Source: Ruminiclostridium sp. (GTDB taxonomy: Bacteria > Bacillota > Clostridia > Oscillospirales > Ruminococcaceae). Taken from it: a stretch of 56,410 nt of DNA. Under the pieces are notes generated by a model. The model had not been told where the DNA came from, did not search any database, and saw only the letters and a list, made by a program, of their open reading frames with translations. The stretch covers positions 1-56,410 of the forward strand of contig JAGBMA010000088.1 in the NCBI GenBank assembly GCA_017635095.1. The letters are read 5' to 3'. Position numbers and translations under genes: made by a program. This document shows, one piece after another, positions 11,981 to 19,871 of the stretch (its first letter is position 1; every line of letters starts with the position of its first letter).

Positions 11981-12026
11981 ATGGTGGACCCGGGGAGGAT
12001 CGAACTCCTGACCTCCGCGTTGCGAA
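11981..12026 (-). repeat. Attachment repeat: copy of the tRNA-Ala 3' end
   Basis: These 46 bases are identical to 19795-19840, the 3' part of the intact tRNA-Ala gene, including T-arm, acceptor strand and CCA. The match stops in the anticodon stem-loop, after which the sequences diverge. This is the standard product of tyrosine-recombinase integration into a tRNA gene, so it marks the far end of the element. Confidence 0.9.
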
Positions 12027-12361
12027 GGCAAGTTTAGACTTTTTGCAATTTGCAATTATTTGTTGCAATCCAGCTTAACTAAGCGCTTTGCACGGGTTAT
12101 AATGTCTAATTACTTTTCGCGATTTTTGACCATTTTTTGCCTTTTTTGGCATCTTGTGTGTACAAATTGTGTACAGCCAGATTAGTTAATCTAAATTGCA
12201 TCGAAAAACCATAAATTTTACACTCGTGCAATGCAAAGTATGAATATATTCACAACGATTCATTCAATTACTCTGAGTAAACGGGGTTCGGACACCGAAA
12301 TTGATAAATATATAATAATTATAACATATTTCGATAAGATATGTCAAATTTAAAGCGGAGG
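12027..12361. other. Non-coding left arm of the element
   Basis: About 335 AT-rich bases with no believable gene. It contains GTGTACA twice around AAATT (12157-12175), discussed as a possible recombinase arm site, and a stretch of short T-runs. No promoter or RNA gene is evident. Confidence 0.5.
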
Positions 12362-13702
12362 TCAGGAGTTACGTTCTTTCAGCCACCTTTTCAGCATAAA
12401 TGCCAGGAAATACGGGAATGTGTAGAACTTTCCGTTCCAGCCGATATTCCTGCGGCCGAGCTTTATACCGTACTTGATGTCGCCAAAATCCGGCTTATCT
12501 ATCAGCTTATTGAGCGAGGGTGTGCTGCTGTCGTTAGCTTTGACCTCAACGGGGATAAGAGAATCCTTGTCGCGCACGAAGAAATCCATTTCTATCGTGC
12601 TTTTTTCGTTCCGGAAGAAGTACAGCGCGTAGCCTTGCTTATACAGCATATCCGCGACGATATTCTCATAGATAGCGCCTTTGTAGGTGTTGAAGTTCTT
12701 GTTTGCGCGCAGATCGTCCTGCACCTCATCATCAAGTGAGCCTATGAGCAGTCCGGTATCCCGGAAGTAGAGCTTGAAGTTGTCGGGATCAAAGTTGCCG
12801 CCGAGGGGTAGCTCAGGCGCGTCCATGCAGTAGCAGACATTCACCATTCCCGCATTGGCAAGCCAGTCAACGACACCGACATAATCGCGGTTTCTCGCGT
12901 TGTGTGCGACCTTTGATATGCGGAATTTCTTATTGTCGCTGCCGAGAAATACCGGTATTTTCCGGTAAACATTGAGTATCTTCACTTTATCAAGGCTTTC
13001 AGCGTACTTCGTTATATCTTCCTCGTAATCCAGAAGAAGCTGTTTCTGCATTTTCAGGACCCCGCTGTAATTCTTGTTTACTACAAATGAATTCACGACC
13101 GCAGGCATCCCGCCGATGACCATATACTCGCCAAAATGTTCAAGCATGACGTTCATCTCGGTGTTTGACAACGGCGTAACGTCGAGCATGTGCTGATACA
13201 ACCCGTTTATCTGCTCGTCAGAATAGCCGAGCGCCCACAGGAATTCCTCAAAATCCATTGAGTGCATCTCGAAATCGTCTTTGAAACCGACGCTGTTGGA
13301 TTCGATCTCCTTATAGCTGATACCCATGAGCGAGCCGGAGCAGATAACATCATACCGCCCGTCCTGCTTGAAGAACTTAAGACTTGTAGCGCAATCGGGA
13401 CATGCCTGGAGTTCATCAAAGAAGATAAGCGTTTCGCCCTCGGCAAATTCGATCCCCGGTCTCTTGAGCGTAATATTGCGTATGATAGTGTCTGGCTCAT
13501 ACCCATTATCGAAGATGTCTTTAAAAGTCTTTTGCTCAACAAAGTTGATCTCAATCACATTTGCGTAATTGTTCCGTGCGAACTGTCGTATGGATTCGGT
13601 CTTACCGATCTGACGAGCGCCTTTGACTATAAGCGGCTTTCTGTCGGGATTGGCTTTCCATTCGGCGAGAAATGCGTCTATTTTACGTTTCAGAAGTGCC
13701 AT
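12362..13702 (-). CDS. AAA ATPase with DUF4143 C-terminal domain
   Basis: A protein of 446 residues of the large ATP-binding family found scattered in gut bacteria. Walker A is GARQIGKTES (about residues 28-37), Walker B LIFFDELQ (about 92-99) and sensor VICSGS (about 119-124). The C-terminal DUF4143 part has a PD-(D/E)XK-like pattern, EMDFFV...IPVEVKA (about 395-412), so a nuclease-like fold is possible. Its biological role is not established; it behaves as an accessory gene. ATG at 13702 follows a consensus promoter by about 20 bases, with GGGTGATGA as a weak ribosome site. It stands alone at the left end of the element. Confidence 0.85.
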   Translation of the reverse strand: MALLKRKIDAFLAEWKANPDRKPLIVKGARQIGKTESIRQFARNNYANVIEINFVEQKTFKDIFDNGYEPDTIIRNITLKRPGIEFAEGETLIFFDELQACPDCATSLKFFKQDGRYDVICSGSLMGISYKEIESNSVGFKDDFEMHSMDFEEFLWALGYSDEQINGLYQHMLDVTPLSNTEMNVMLEHFGEYMVIGGMPAVVNSFVVNKNYSGVLKMQKQLLLDYEEDITKYAESLDKVKILNVYRKIPVFLGSDNKKFRISKVAHNARNRDYVGVVDWLANAGMVNVCYCMDAPELPLGGNFDPDNFKLYFRDTGLLIGSLDDEVQDDLRANKNFNTYKGAIYENIVADMLYKQGYALYFFRNEKSTIEMDFFVRDKDSLIPVEVKANDSSTPSLNKLIDKPDFGDIKYGIKLGRRNIGWNGKFYTFPYFLAFMLKRWLKERNS

Positions 13703-13720
13703 ATATCATCACCCGAGATT

Positions 13721-13749
13721 ATTATATCACATAATTCCAAGAATATCAA
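13721..13749 (-). promoter_or_regulatory. Promoter of the DUF4143 ATPase gene
   Basis: On the minus strand: TTGATA (13744-13749), 17 bases, TATAAT (13721-13726). Confidence 0.8.
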
Positions 13750-13806
13750 GGCGAGATTTCACAAAATTCCAAAAGAATTTTGAGCAATCCTCACATTTTT
13801 CTTCTT

Positions 13807-13927
13807 AACGCATCATTAAACGCAAGCGTTTGTTATTTGATGTGTTGGTCACAAATGGCTTAATATAGGCGTTCTCTTTAATTCAAACACATCATAACGC
13901 ACGGTTTAACACATCATTTAACGCACG
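13807..13927. repeat. Cluster of degenerate 18-20 bp repeats
   Basis: Three direct copies of a unit close to AACACATCATTTAACGCACG lie at 13807-13826, 13886-13903 and 13908-13927. An inverted partial copy (ATTTGATGTGTT) lies at 13835-13846. They sit in the gap between the ATPase and XRE genes. They resemble iterons or regulator boxes rather than CRISPR repeats, because spacing and length vary. Confidence 0.55.
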
Positions 13928-13946
13928 ATATGAATAGGATAACGCA

Positions 13947-13981
13947 ATAACTCCGCTTATCTTAACGATAAGCGGAGTTAT
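13947..13981. terminator. Perfect 15-bp hairpin after the XRE gene
   Basis: ATAACTCCGCTTATC (13947-13961) and GATAAGCGGAGTTAT (13967-13981) pair fully around TTAAC. It lies directly past the XRE stop. The T-run is poor on both strands, so it may work as a terminator or an RNA-stability hairpin. Confidence 0.6.
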
Positions 13982-13984
13982 ATA

Positions 13985-14302
13985 TTATTTATTGTCATTC
14001 AAGCCTTGCATATATGCTATAACCTTTTCCTTCTGTGTGTCATTGAGTTGCTTAAACAAAGAAAGCAAGGATTGTTCACTATCTGAGAGATCTGATTTTG
14101 AATACGGTAATTTACTGTCAGTATAACCTATGAGGTAATCGATGGATACGTTATAGTGTTTAGCAAGGATTATAAGAGTATCATAATCCGGATATGCTTG
14201 ACCGAGCTCATAGCGGCTTACCATGGTTTGGGATACATTGAGTAGAAAAGCCAATTTTTGTTGACTTTCTTTTTTCGCCTCTCGCAGTTCTTTTAAGCGC
14301 AT
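13985..14302 (-). CDS. XRE-family transcriptional regulator
   Basis: A protein of 105 residues with an N-terminal Cro/C1 helix-turn-helix (LKELREAKKESQQKLAFLLN...TMVSRYELGQAYPD, about residues 3-57). A short C-terminal helical part (about 70-105) probably serves for dimerisation. The start at 14302 follows AGGTGA by six bases; the GTG three codons earlier lies within that ribosome site. It is divergent from the SLOG gene, and the gap holds three related boxes and a consensus promoter for the SLOG gene, so it probably represses both. Such regulators usually control excision or cargo genes of integrative elements. Confidence 0.88.
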   Translation of the reverse strand: MRLKELREAKKESQQKLAFLLNVSQTMVSRYELGQAYPDYDTLIILAKHYNVSIDYLIGYTDSKLPYSKSDLSDSEQSLLSLFKQLNDTQKEKVIAYMQGLNDNK

Positions 14303-14323
14303 AATAATCACCTCGTATCTATT

Positions 14324-19202: not shown

Positions 19203-19254
19203 AATAAATATTCCTTTCTGATAAAAATAGTTTGAGCTGAAAAGAATAAAGAAA

Positions 19255-19284
19255 TCAAAAAAGCCAATTCTTAACGAATCGGCT
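19255..19284 (-). terminator. Intrinsic terminator in the AIPR leader (possible attenuator)
   Basis: On the minus strand AGCCGATTC (19284-19276) pairs with GAATTGGCT (19270-19262) around GTTAA, with one wobble, followed by TTTTTTG. It lies between the promoter and the coding region, 50 bases before the start codon. Transcription into the gene would therefore need read-through or anti-termination. Confidence 0.65.
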
Positions 19285-19325
19285 CACAGAATACAAATTA
19301 AAATGACGCGTCCCGTTGATATCCA

Positions 19326-19376
19326 TCAACAAATTTTAACGTTCTTTAATGATTCCAGAGCCTTTTCAGAACTCAT
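19326..19376 (-). CDS. Candidate 16-residue leader peptide
   Basis: An ATG at 19376, preceded by GGAAAAG, opens MSSEKALESLKNVKIC and stops at 19326. It lies between the promoter and the leader terminator. It shows no run of one amino acid, so classic amino-acid attenuation is not obvious. It could be chance. Confidence 0.35.
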   Translation of the reverse strand: MSSEKALESLKNVKIC

Positions 19377-19415
19377 AATAAACTTTTCCAACTGTATATC
19401 CAACAGTCTATATAT

Positions 19416-19444
19416 AAAATACCATATTGTTGACGATTTGTCAA
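19416..19444 (-). promoter_or_regulatory. Promoter of the AIPR gene
   Basis: On the minus strand: TTGACA (19439-19444), 17 bases, TATTTT (19416-19421). A TTGAC-GATTT-GTCAA dyad (19430-19444) overlaps the -35. Confidence 0.7.
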
Positions 19445-19747
19445 GTATTATTATGAAGAAAATCCAAAATTGTGATACATTTACAAAAACGATATAATTA
19501 TTTGTTATTATTGTCCAAACATGTATCATATAAAACGAGCTTAACAGCAACATAATTATATATGATTAACTCCGTTTTTTCTAATTTCTGCCCTCTACGC
19601 CCCTCCCCCTCAAAATTTAAGTAACATCTTGCACCAGATTTTCACCAAAAATCTTTCCAAAAATCGCGTATTCTCAGGCAGCAAAAAATTTTTTAGTGTC
19701 AACAAATTGTCAACAAATCCCGATTTTCGGGCATATGTATTGATTAT
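19445..19747. other. Non-coding right arm of the element
   Basis: AT-rich sequence without a convincing gene. It contains TGTCAACAAAT twice in tandem (about 19697-19718), similar to the GTGTACAAATT pair in the left arm, and a pyrimidine tract (CCCTCTACGCCCCTCCCCCT) near 19590-19610. Confidence 0.45.
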
Positions 19748-19787
19748 AAAACAAAAGCAAAAGCCGCCCAAGCCTTTGCCTGAGCGG
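19748..19787 (-). terminator. Terminator of tRNA-Ala
   Basis: A GC-rich imperfect hairpin (CCGCTCAGGC / GCTTGGGCGG on the minus strand, 19764-19787) followed by CTTTTGCTTTTGTTTT, directly after the CCA end of the tRNA. Confidence 0.7.
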
Positions 19788-19794
19788 ATTTGCT

Positions 19795-19840
19795 ATGGTG
19801 GACCCGGGGAGGATCGAACTCCTGACCTCCGCGTTGCGAA
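19795..19840 (-). repeat. Attachment repeat within tRNA-Ala
   Basis: The second copy of the 46-base repeat (see 11981-12026). Here it completes the functional tRNA gene. Confidence 0.9.
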
Positions 19841-19871
19841 CGCGGCGCTCTCCCAGCTGAGCTACGAGCCC
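19796..19871 (-). tRNA. tRNA-Ala (anticodon CGC)
   Basis: A 76-base cloverleaf with encoded CCA. The acceptor is GGGCTCG / CGGGTCC and contains the G3-U70 pair that marks alanine tRNAs. The D-arm is GCTCAGCTGGGAGAGC, the anticodon stem CCGCG/CGCGG with loop TTCGCAA (anticodon CGC, reading GCG), and the T-loop GTTCGATCC. It is the integration target of the element, and its 3' half is duplicated at 11981-12026. Confidence 0.95.

Follow-up and report, generated by a model that had tools for sequence, protein, structure and literature searches.

In the parts of PMC5704250 drawn on here, cis-mobilizable elements (CIMEs) are described as having lost their integration and transfer genes and kept both attachment (att) sites, attL and attR. 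The same parts describe tandem accretion, and name a composite at tRNA-Lys of S. agalactiae and ICESt1-related elements. We analyzed a stretch of 56,410 bases, hereafter the window, which is the whole of contig C10 of a metagenome-assembled genome (MAG) of Ruminiclostridium sp. (3.83 Mb in 236 contigs), and within it a 7.8-kb segment lying between an intact tRNA-Ala(CGC) gene and a second copy of the 3' half of that gene. The segment fits the CIME kind. Our analysis indicates that it is very probably the outcome of integration at tRNA-Ala, tandem accretion and decay to a CIME-like remnant.

Integration at tRNA-Ala(CGC)

The sole tRNA of the window, tRNA-Ala(CGC), was found by ARAGORN and, as the same gene, by Rfam. 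A repeat search confirmed the original prediction that 46 bp of its 3' part recur exactly: the sequence occurs exactly twice in the window (11981-12026 and 19795-19840), on the same strand and 7,814 bp apart, and the match extends to 49 bp at 98%. By simple 4^-46 arithmetic the chance of such a repeat is about 3e-19, and a chance origin is not expected. Further att-like copies are present in the same genome, an exact one of 48 bp on contig C216 and one of 93% identity on C68. Crossover in the anticodon loop is known at tRNA genes.

Integration by site-specific recombination at this gene is strongly supported by comparison with RGIG8838, a related Ruminiclostridium sp. MAG from water deer omasum (G095, apparently one genome with G077 and counted once). 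On its contig C124 (locus L090), a single att copy links the two ends of the window segment, an arrangement that a circle or a tandem copy would produce. Window positions 11981-16288 correspond to C124 6728-11036 at 97%, and 16469-19843 to C124 3404-6776 at 94%. The order on C124 is relaxase, HTH_17 protein (which we read as excisionase-like), full integrase, AIPR, terminator, one 49-bp att, ATPase, HTH, YpsA, YgjP and HsdR. Element ends also lie behind the same tRNA in five other genomes (G010, G060, G095, G033 and G006), three of which have distal half copies, so that the predicted insertion at a tRNA is borne out both by the joined ends and by a hotspot in relatives. In G010 a tRNA-Ala half copy lies 31.6 kb off, with a full-length integrase 95% identical to that of the window; in G060 a 15.4-kb segment with full-length relaxase and integrase open reading frames (ORFs) lies between tRNA-Ala and a half copy; and G095 has a tandem array at tRNA-Ala. 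Element ends stand directly behind tRNA-Ala in G033 and G006, and an integrase is present too in G033.

The large hairpin noted beside the distal att at 11917-11960 is real, its arms (11917-11934 and 11943-11960) being 94% complementary, and it belongs to a module of about 125 bp. A search of 71 genomes of the genus with a 35-base pattern, allowing up to 3 mismatches, found this module at 17 sites in 10 genomes. It begins 1 nt past the CCA of an intact tRNA at eight of the 17 (Tyr, Gln three times, Arg three times, Lys), lies behind a tRNA half at three (tRNA-Ala in the window and on RGIG8838 C247, another tRNA in G010) and has a tRNA end 94-298 nt away at four; no tRNA was found at two of the 17. 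When the flanks of the window segment are joined, the module likewise stands 1 nt after the CCA. Because the joined site gives this register and the module abuts a tRNA-Ala half in RGIG8838, the original suggestion that the hairpin was the terminator of tRNA-Ala gains indirect support, short of proof. A diverged module copy lies about 200 bp past the distal att of G060. In addition, G010 has the module inside its island at L056:4573-4740, joined there to a 3' half from another tRNA and separated from tRNA-Ala by 542 nt.

Decay of the segment and the number of elements

The segment is a decayed remnant rather than an intact element, because its integrase gene is truncated and fused to a deleted and frameshifted hsdR. 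The integrase ORF encodes 413 aa in the window versus 464 aa in L090 and G010; it begins at an internal Met, and residues 1-51, presumably the arm-binding domain, are absent. The 413 aa that remain show a gapless alignment with the intact copies. Inspection by eye found a ribosome-binding-like sequence ahead of the ATG in the intact copy but none in the window. In comparison with C124, at 16469 the sequence passes from hsdR straight into codon 46 of the integrase, and 1.1 kb inside hsdR is skipped. HsdR, which has 1,047 aa in L090, is broken in the window, with its fragments in different frames, and the deletion joins share 2-3 bp (by eye). Were C124 a single unit, the window would lack at least 14.2 kb of it (C124 12361-23205 plus 1-3403). 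Thus the recombinase gene that had been predicted is present, but the single intact 7.8-kb element is not, as both the recombinase and hsdR are broken. A functional integrase, as an autonomous integrative and mobilizable element (IME) would have, appears to be lacking, since the gene is truncated.

Gene content was assessed by scanning the seven ORFs of the segment with Pfam and PADLOC. In agreement with the original prediction, Pfam found no relaxase and no phage structural genes among the seven (PHROGs was not run), and no match to a type IV secretion system. The further statement that the genes are mostly of defence type was too strong: there is one AIPR-domain gene and one PDC-S01 candidate, the ATPase, and PADLOC found no complete known defence system. 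The other PADLOC results were generic HTH matches (best, capH at 5e-10) and a weak REase_I match to the hsdR remnant. A defence island was rejected as no complete system occurs among the seven ORFs, and a prophage as the Pfam scan gave no structural genes. A viral or plasmid origin was also rejected. In IMG/VR one att pattern gave no matches and the integrase gave three stretches, none confirmed as a relative; the top identity was 38% among the 20 matches listed out of 262 to phage records, and 24-33% among the 15 listed out of 39 to plasmid records. A scan of named genomes returned 49 pattern-matching stretches, 2 of which were confirmed.

The two halves of the segment are found in RGIG8838 in adjacent elements and in the opposite order, as rel1-int-AIPR / att / ATPase-...-rel2. 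The two relaxases, one on either side of the C124 att, are 77% identical over 506 aa. Contig C257 of the same MAG bears an intact tRNA-Ala together with a further integrase, which has 66% identity with that of L090, and ends in a relaxase fragment that starts where the similarity to rel2 stops. Because the left part of the segment matches one RGIG8838 element and the right part its tandem neighbour, we infer that a pair of mobilizable elements in tandem has reasonably probably collapsed to give this CIME-like remnant.

The proposed course of events begins with integration, which is strongly supported: a tyrosine integrase inserted mobilizable DNA into the half of tRNA-Ala(CGC) running from anticodon to CCA. 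The incoming att restored the 3' end of the tRNA and brought a new terminator, and the former 3' half, along with its probable terminator hairpin, came to lie 7.8 kb away. Elements of this kind accumulate in tandem at tRNA-Ala, and a short-homology deletion probably fused the leading part of one (ATPase, HTH, YpsA, YgjP, hsdR) to the tail of a second (integrase, AIPR). Lost in such a deletion would be the genes for relaxase and excisionase, the integrase's presumed arm-binding domain and, probably, an internal att. Both outer att sites are kept and, because no intact integrase is left, movement would be expected only with integrase supplied in trans. A full-length integrase of 66% identity on C216 of the same genome is a speculative candidate for such a helper. 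At this C216 locus (L009, in G000) two different element ends meet across an att copy; this full integrase and, by eye, a gene resembling a replication initiator are also there, and we read this junction, by eye in part, as a second element pile in the window's genome.

Table. Features at the tRNA-Ala(CGC) locus, in window coordinates
Feature	Position	Strand	Remarks
Dispersed hairpin module, probable old tRNA-Ala terminator	11857..11980	minus	
Distal att, 3' part of tRNA-Ala	11981..12026	minus	49 bp to 12029 at 98%
Left arm-type direct repeat TGTGTACAAATTGTGTACA	12157..12175	not assigned	role inferred
Inverted 16-bp partial att copy	12355..12370	plus	at cargo boundary
AAA_14/DUF4143 ATPase	12362..13702	minus	intact; PADLOC PDC-S01
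HTH_3 repressor-like protein	13985..14311	minus	
YpsA/SLOG protein	14423..14890	plus	
YgjP-like metallopeptidase	14885..15613	minus	
hsdR pseudogene	15613..16471	minus	C-terminal 188 aa and short helicase fragment; internal deletion, frameshift
Tyrosine integrase with inserted HTH	16469..17727	plus	N-terminal 51 aa missing; ORF from 16486
AIPR-domain protein	17802..19202	minus	
Right arm-type direct repeat GTGTCAACAAATTGTCAACAAA	19696..19717	not assigned	role inferred
Terminator-like hairpin, element-borne	19758..19794	minus	downstream of tRNA; by eye
Intact tRNA-Ala(CGC), target gene	19796..19871	minus	ARAGORN, Rfam; proximal att 19795-19840

Locus, left flank and alternative explanations

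In G010, G033, G095 and G060, tRNA-Ala(CGC) lies within about 1.5 kb of rlmB, as does its 5' part in G023, where the rlmB contig begins within the tRNA gene and the region behind lies off the contig. The rlmB gene of the window's genome lies on C121, which has no tRNA-Ala match and carries a histidyl-tRNA-synthetase-like gene upstream of rlmB (read from the sequence, with no search). The window tRNA adjoins a GGDEF gene and the yifB cluster (19872-24441), and near the yifB cluster of G010 and G033 there is no tRNA-Ala match. Since the tRNA neighbours GGDEF/yifB in the window and rlmB in five relatives, either the tRNA locus moved or an assembly is wrong.

On the left, 10742-11989 is 99.9% identical to G006, and over 2943-10442 the identity is 99.6-100% in 11 of the 15 bins of 500 bp and 78-94% in the four bins spanning 6943-8942. 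Other proteins common to the two genomes are 71-88% identical, so the near-identity of 2943-11989 suggests that the block was transferred recently, or that G006 contains contamination or a chimeric contig. The block borders tRNA-Gln in G006, and the left flank is not established as ancestral chromosome. By eye, except for the response regulator, its genes comprise a two-component system, an ABC transporter, an FtsX-like permease, a serine-hydrolase-like protein and a TetR-like regulator.

The arm-type repeats of the window are unequal (left GTGTACA versus right GTCAACA), and arms match in two of the three other single att-to-att segments; among all four, G010 and C247 match, and the window and G060 mismatch. 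As a proof of a two-element fusion the mismatch is weakened, because G060 is also a mismatched single segment. Separately, an inverted partial att copy of 10-16 bp lies 374-384 nt inside the left end at all six type A/B ends measured (window 12355-12370; L010, L054, L141/L142, L169), and the D-type end of C247, the one D end measured, gave no inverted att match of at least 8 nt. In the window this copy takes the place of the last codons of the ATPase gene, in comparison with the G010 homologue.

Several observations count against integration, tandem accretion and fusion as set out above. G060 has mismatched arms despite full-length relaxase and integrase ORFs, the C124 junction could come from a circle or from a tandem of one and the same element, and the join between C124 and C257 shows no clean overlap. 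The ATPase is not element-specific, a 91% homologue being present on C1 of G010, away from the island contig C4. The left flank is unstable, its block being nearly identical in G006 beside tRNA-Gln. Finally, the empty tRNA-Ala site with hairpin that the original prediction proposed to seek in relatives was not found: no intact tRNA-Ala is directly followed by the module among the 17 module sites of the 71 genomes. In this comparison seven more distant loci were set aside (G028, G004, G032, G007, G001, G053 and G059), and the close relatives G010, G033, G006, G095 and G060 all carry element sequence behind tRNA-Ala(CGC). An alternative to the fusion of two elements is that one hybrid element, with a left end of type B and a right end of type A produced by homologous recombination between relaxase genes, integrated whole and later lost its middle. 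The identity of rel1 and rel2 is enough for such recombination, and in G060 a lone segment likewise has unlike arms; however, the halves in RGIG8838 belong to different neighbouring elements and no intact hybrid occurs among the loci fetched, which leaves the hybrid a possible though not a probable origin.

An intact and still mobile 7.8-kb element would agree with the preserved att copies and arm-type repeats and with the gapless alignment of the remaining integrase, but is highly improbable given an integrase that lacks 51 aa and its start signals, a broken hsdR and no relaxase among the seven ORFs. A plain duplication of the tRNA fragment without integration would be favored by tRNA-linked repeats, which are common in the genus; the att-joined ends in L090 contradict it, the segment holds an integrase gene and arm-type repeats, other integrases use the same tRNA, and we find it scarcely credible. 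Misassembly at the 46-bp repeats is suggested by a MAG in 236 contigs with four att-like copies and by a left flank that borders tRNA-Gln in G006. Such a chimera is nevertheless very unlikely, as another MAG has both end sequences and, within each half, the same order of genes, and the junction of module and tRNA-Ala half is also present in RGIG8838 C247.

Integrase family and comparison with known systems

In the integrase, a Cro/C1-type helix-turn-helix (HTH) of about 55-65 residues appears, by alignment and Pfam, to sit between both halves of the core-binding domain. Representative loci are the window integrase (16469-17727) and L090:3268-4662. The insertion was aligned in 41 of the 48 loci fetched, one of them partial, a sample taken by similarity to an HTH-bearing query among the matches listed and therefore biased, with near-duplicates included. 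Two of the seven loci lacking the HTH are fragments that do not reach that region, and a comparator integrase from G010 has no insertion. Pfam assigned HTH_3 in 24 and HTH_26 in 21 of 39 HTH-bearing members. At 24 of 40 HTH-bearing loci the integrase gene converges with a tRNA whose 3' end is no more than 1 kb away (43-976 bp; Ala 5, Met 6, Arg 6, Thr 4, Trp 1, Ser 1, Leu 1); the other 16 include the window, whose tRNA is 2.1 kb off and past the stretch shown, and L190 and L199, which have less than 700 bp there. Proximity to tRNAs is also seen for integrases that lack the HTH, so it is not peculiar to the insertion. In none of 10 PDB matches did the best stretch fall over the insertion, and a limited open-access literature gave no description of integrases with an HTH in the core-binding domain; HTH mentions in the parts of PMC8138268 drawn on concern excisionase profiles. 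The architecture is widespread in the Clostridia sampled and is testable. We tentatively propose, while considering it rather unlikely as a whole, an apparently undescribed HTH-integrase lineage across the class Clostridia, in which the HTH might be an extra DNA-recognition or autoregulatory module that allows relatives of one enzyme to use the 3' ends of many tRNA isotypes and could leave the window copy, despite its loss of the presumed arm-binding domain, partly active.

Like a CIME, the window segment keeps attL and attR, as the 46-bp copies whose ends are joined in L090; no relaxase was found in the window where L090 has one, the integrase is truncated, and a relative has tandem neighbours at the same target. 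Unlike a CIME, the window retains part of the integrase gene, and the segment is likely to be two elements fused; any mobility it has is putative. IMEs with a MobA/VirD2-type relaxase at tRNA genes (L090, G010, G060) have the same att and integrase family, and L090 has cargo in common with the window, whose copy differs in having no relaxase found and no full integrase. In this largely uncultured gut and rumen genus, a tRNA hotspot thus appears to fill with tandem mobilizable elements and to decay by deletion as the outer att sites persist. Islands formed by tandem accretion at tRNA 3' ends, as described in part in PMC5704250, differ in host and cargo, and the likeness, drawn without an integrase comparison, lies in repeated site-specific integration at one target followed by decay.

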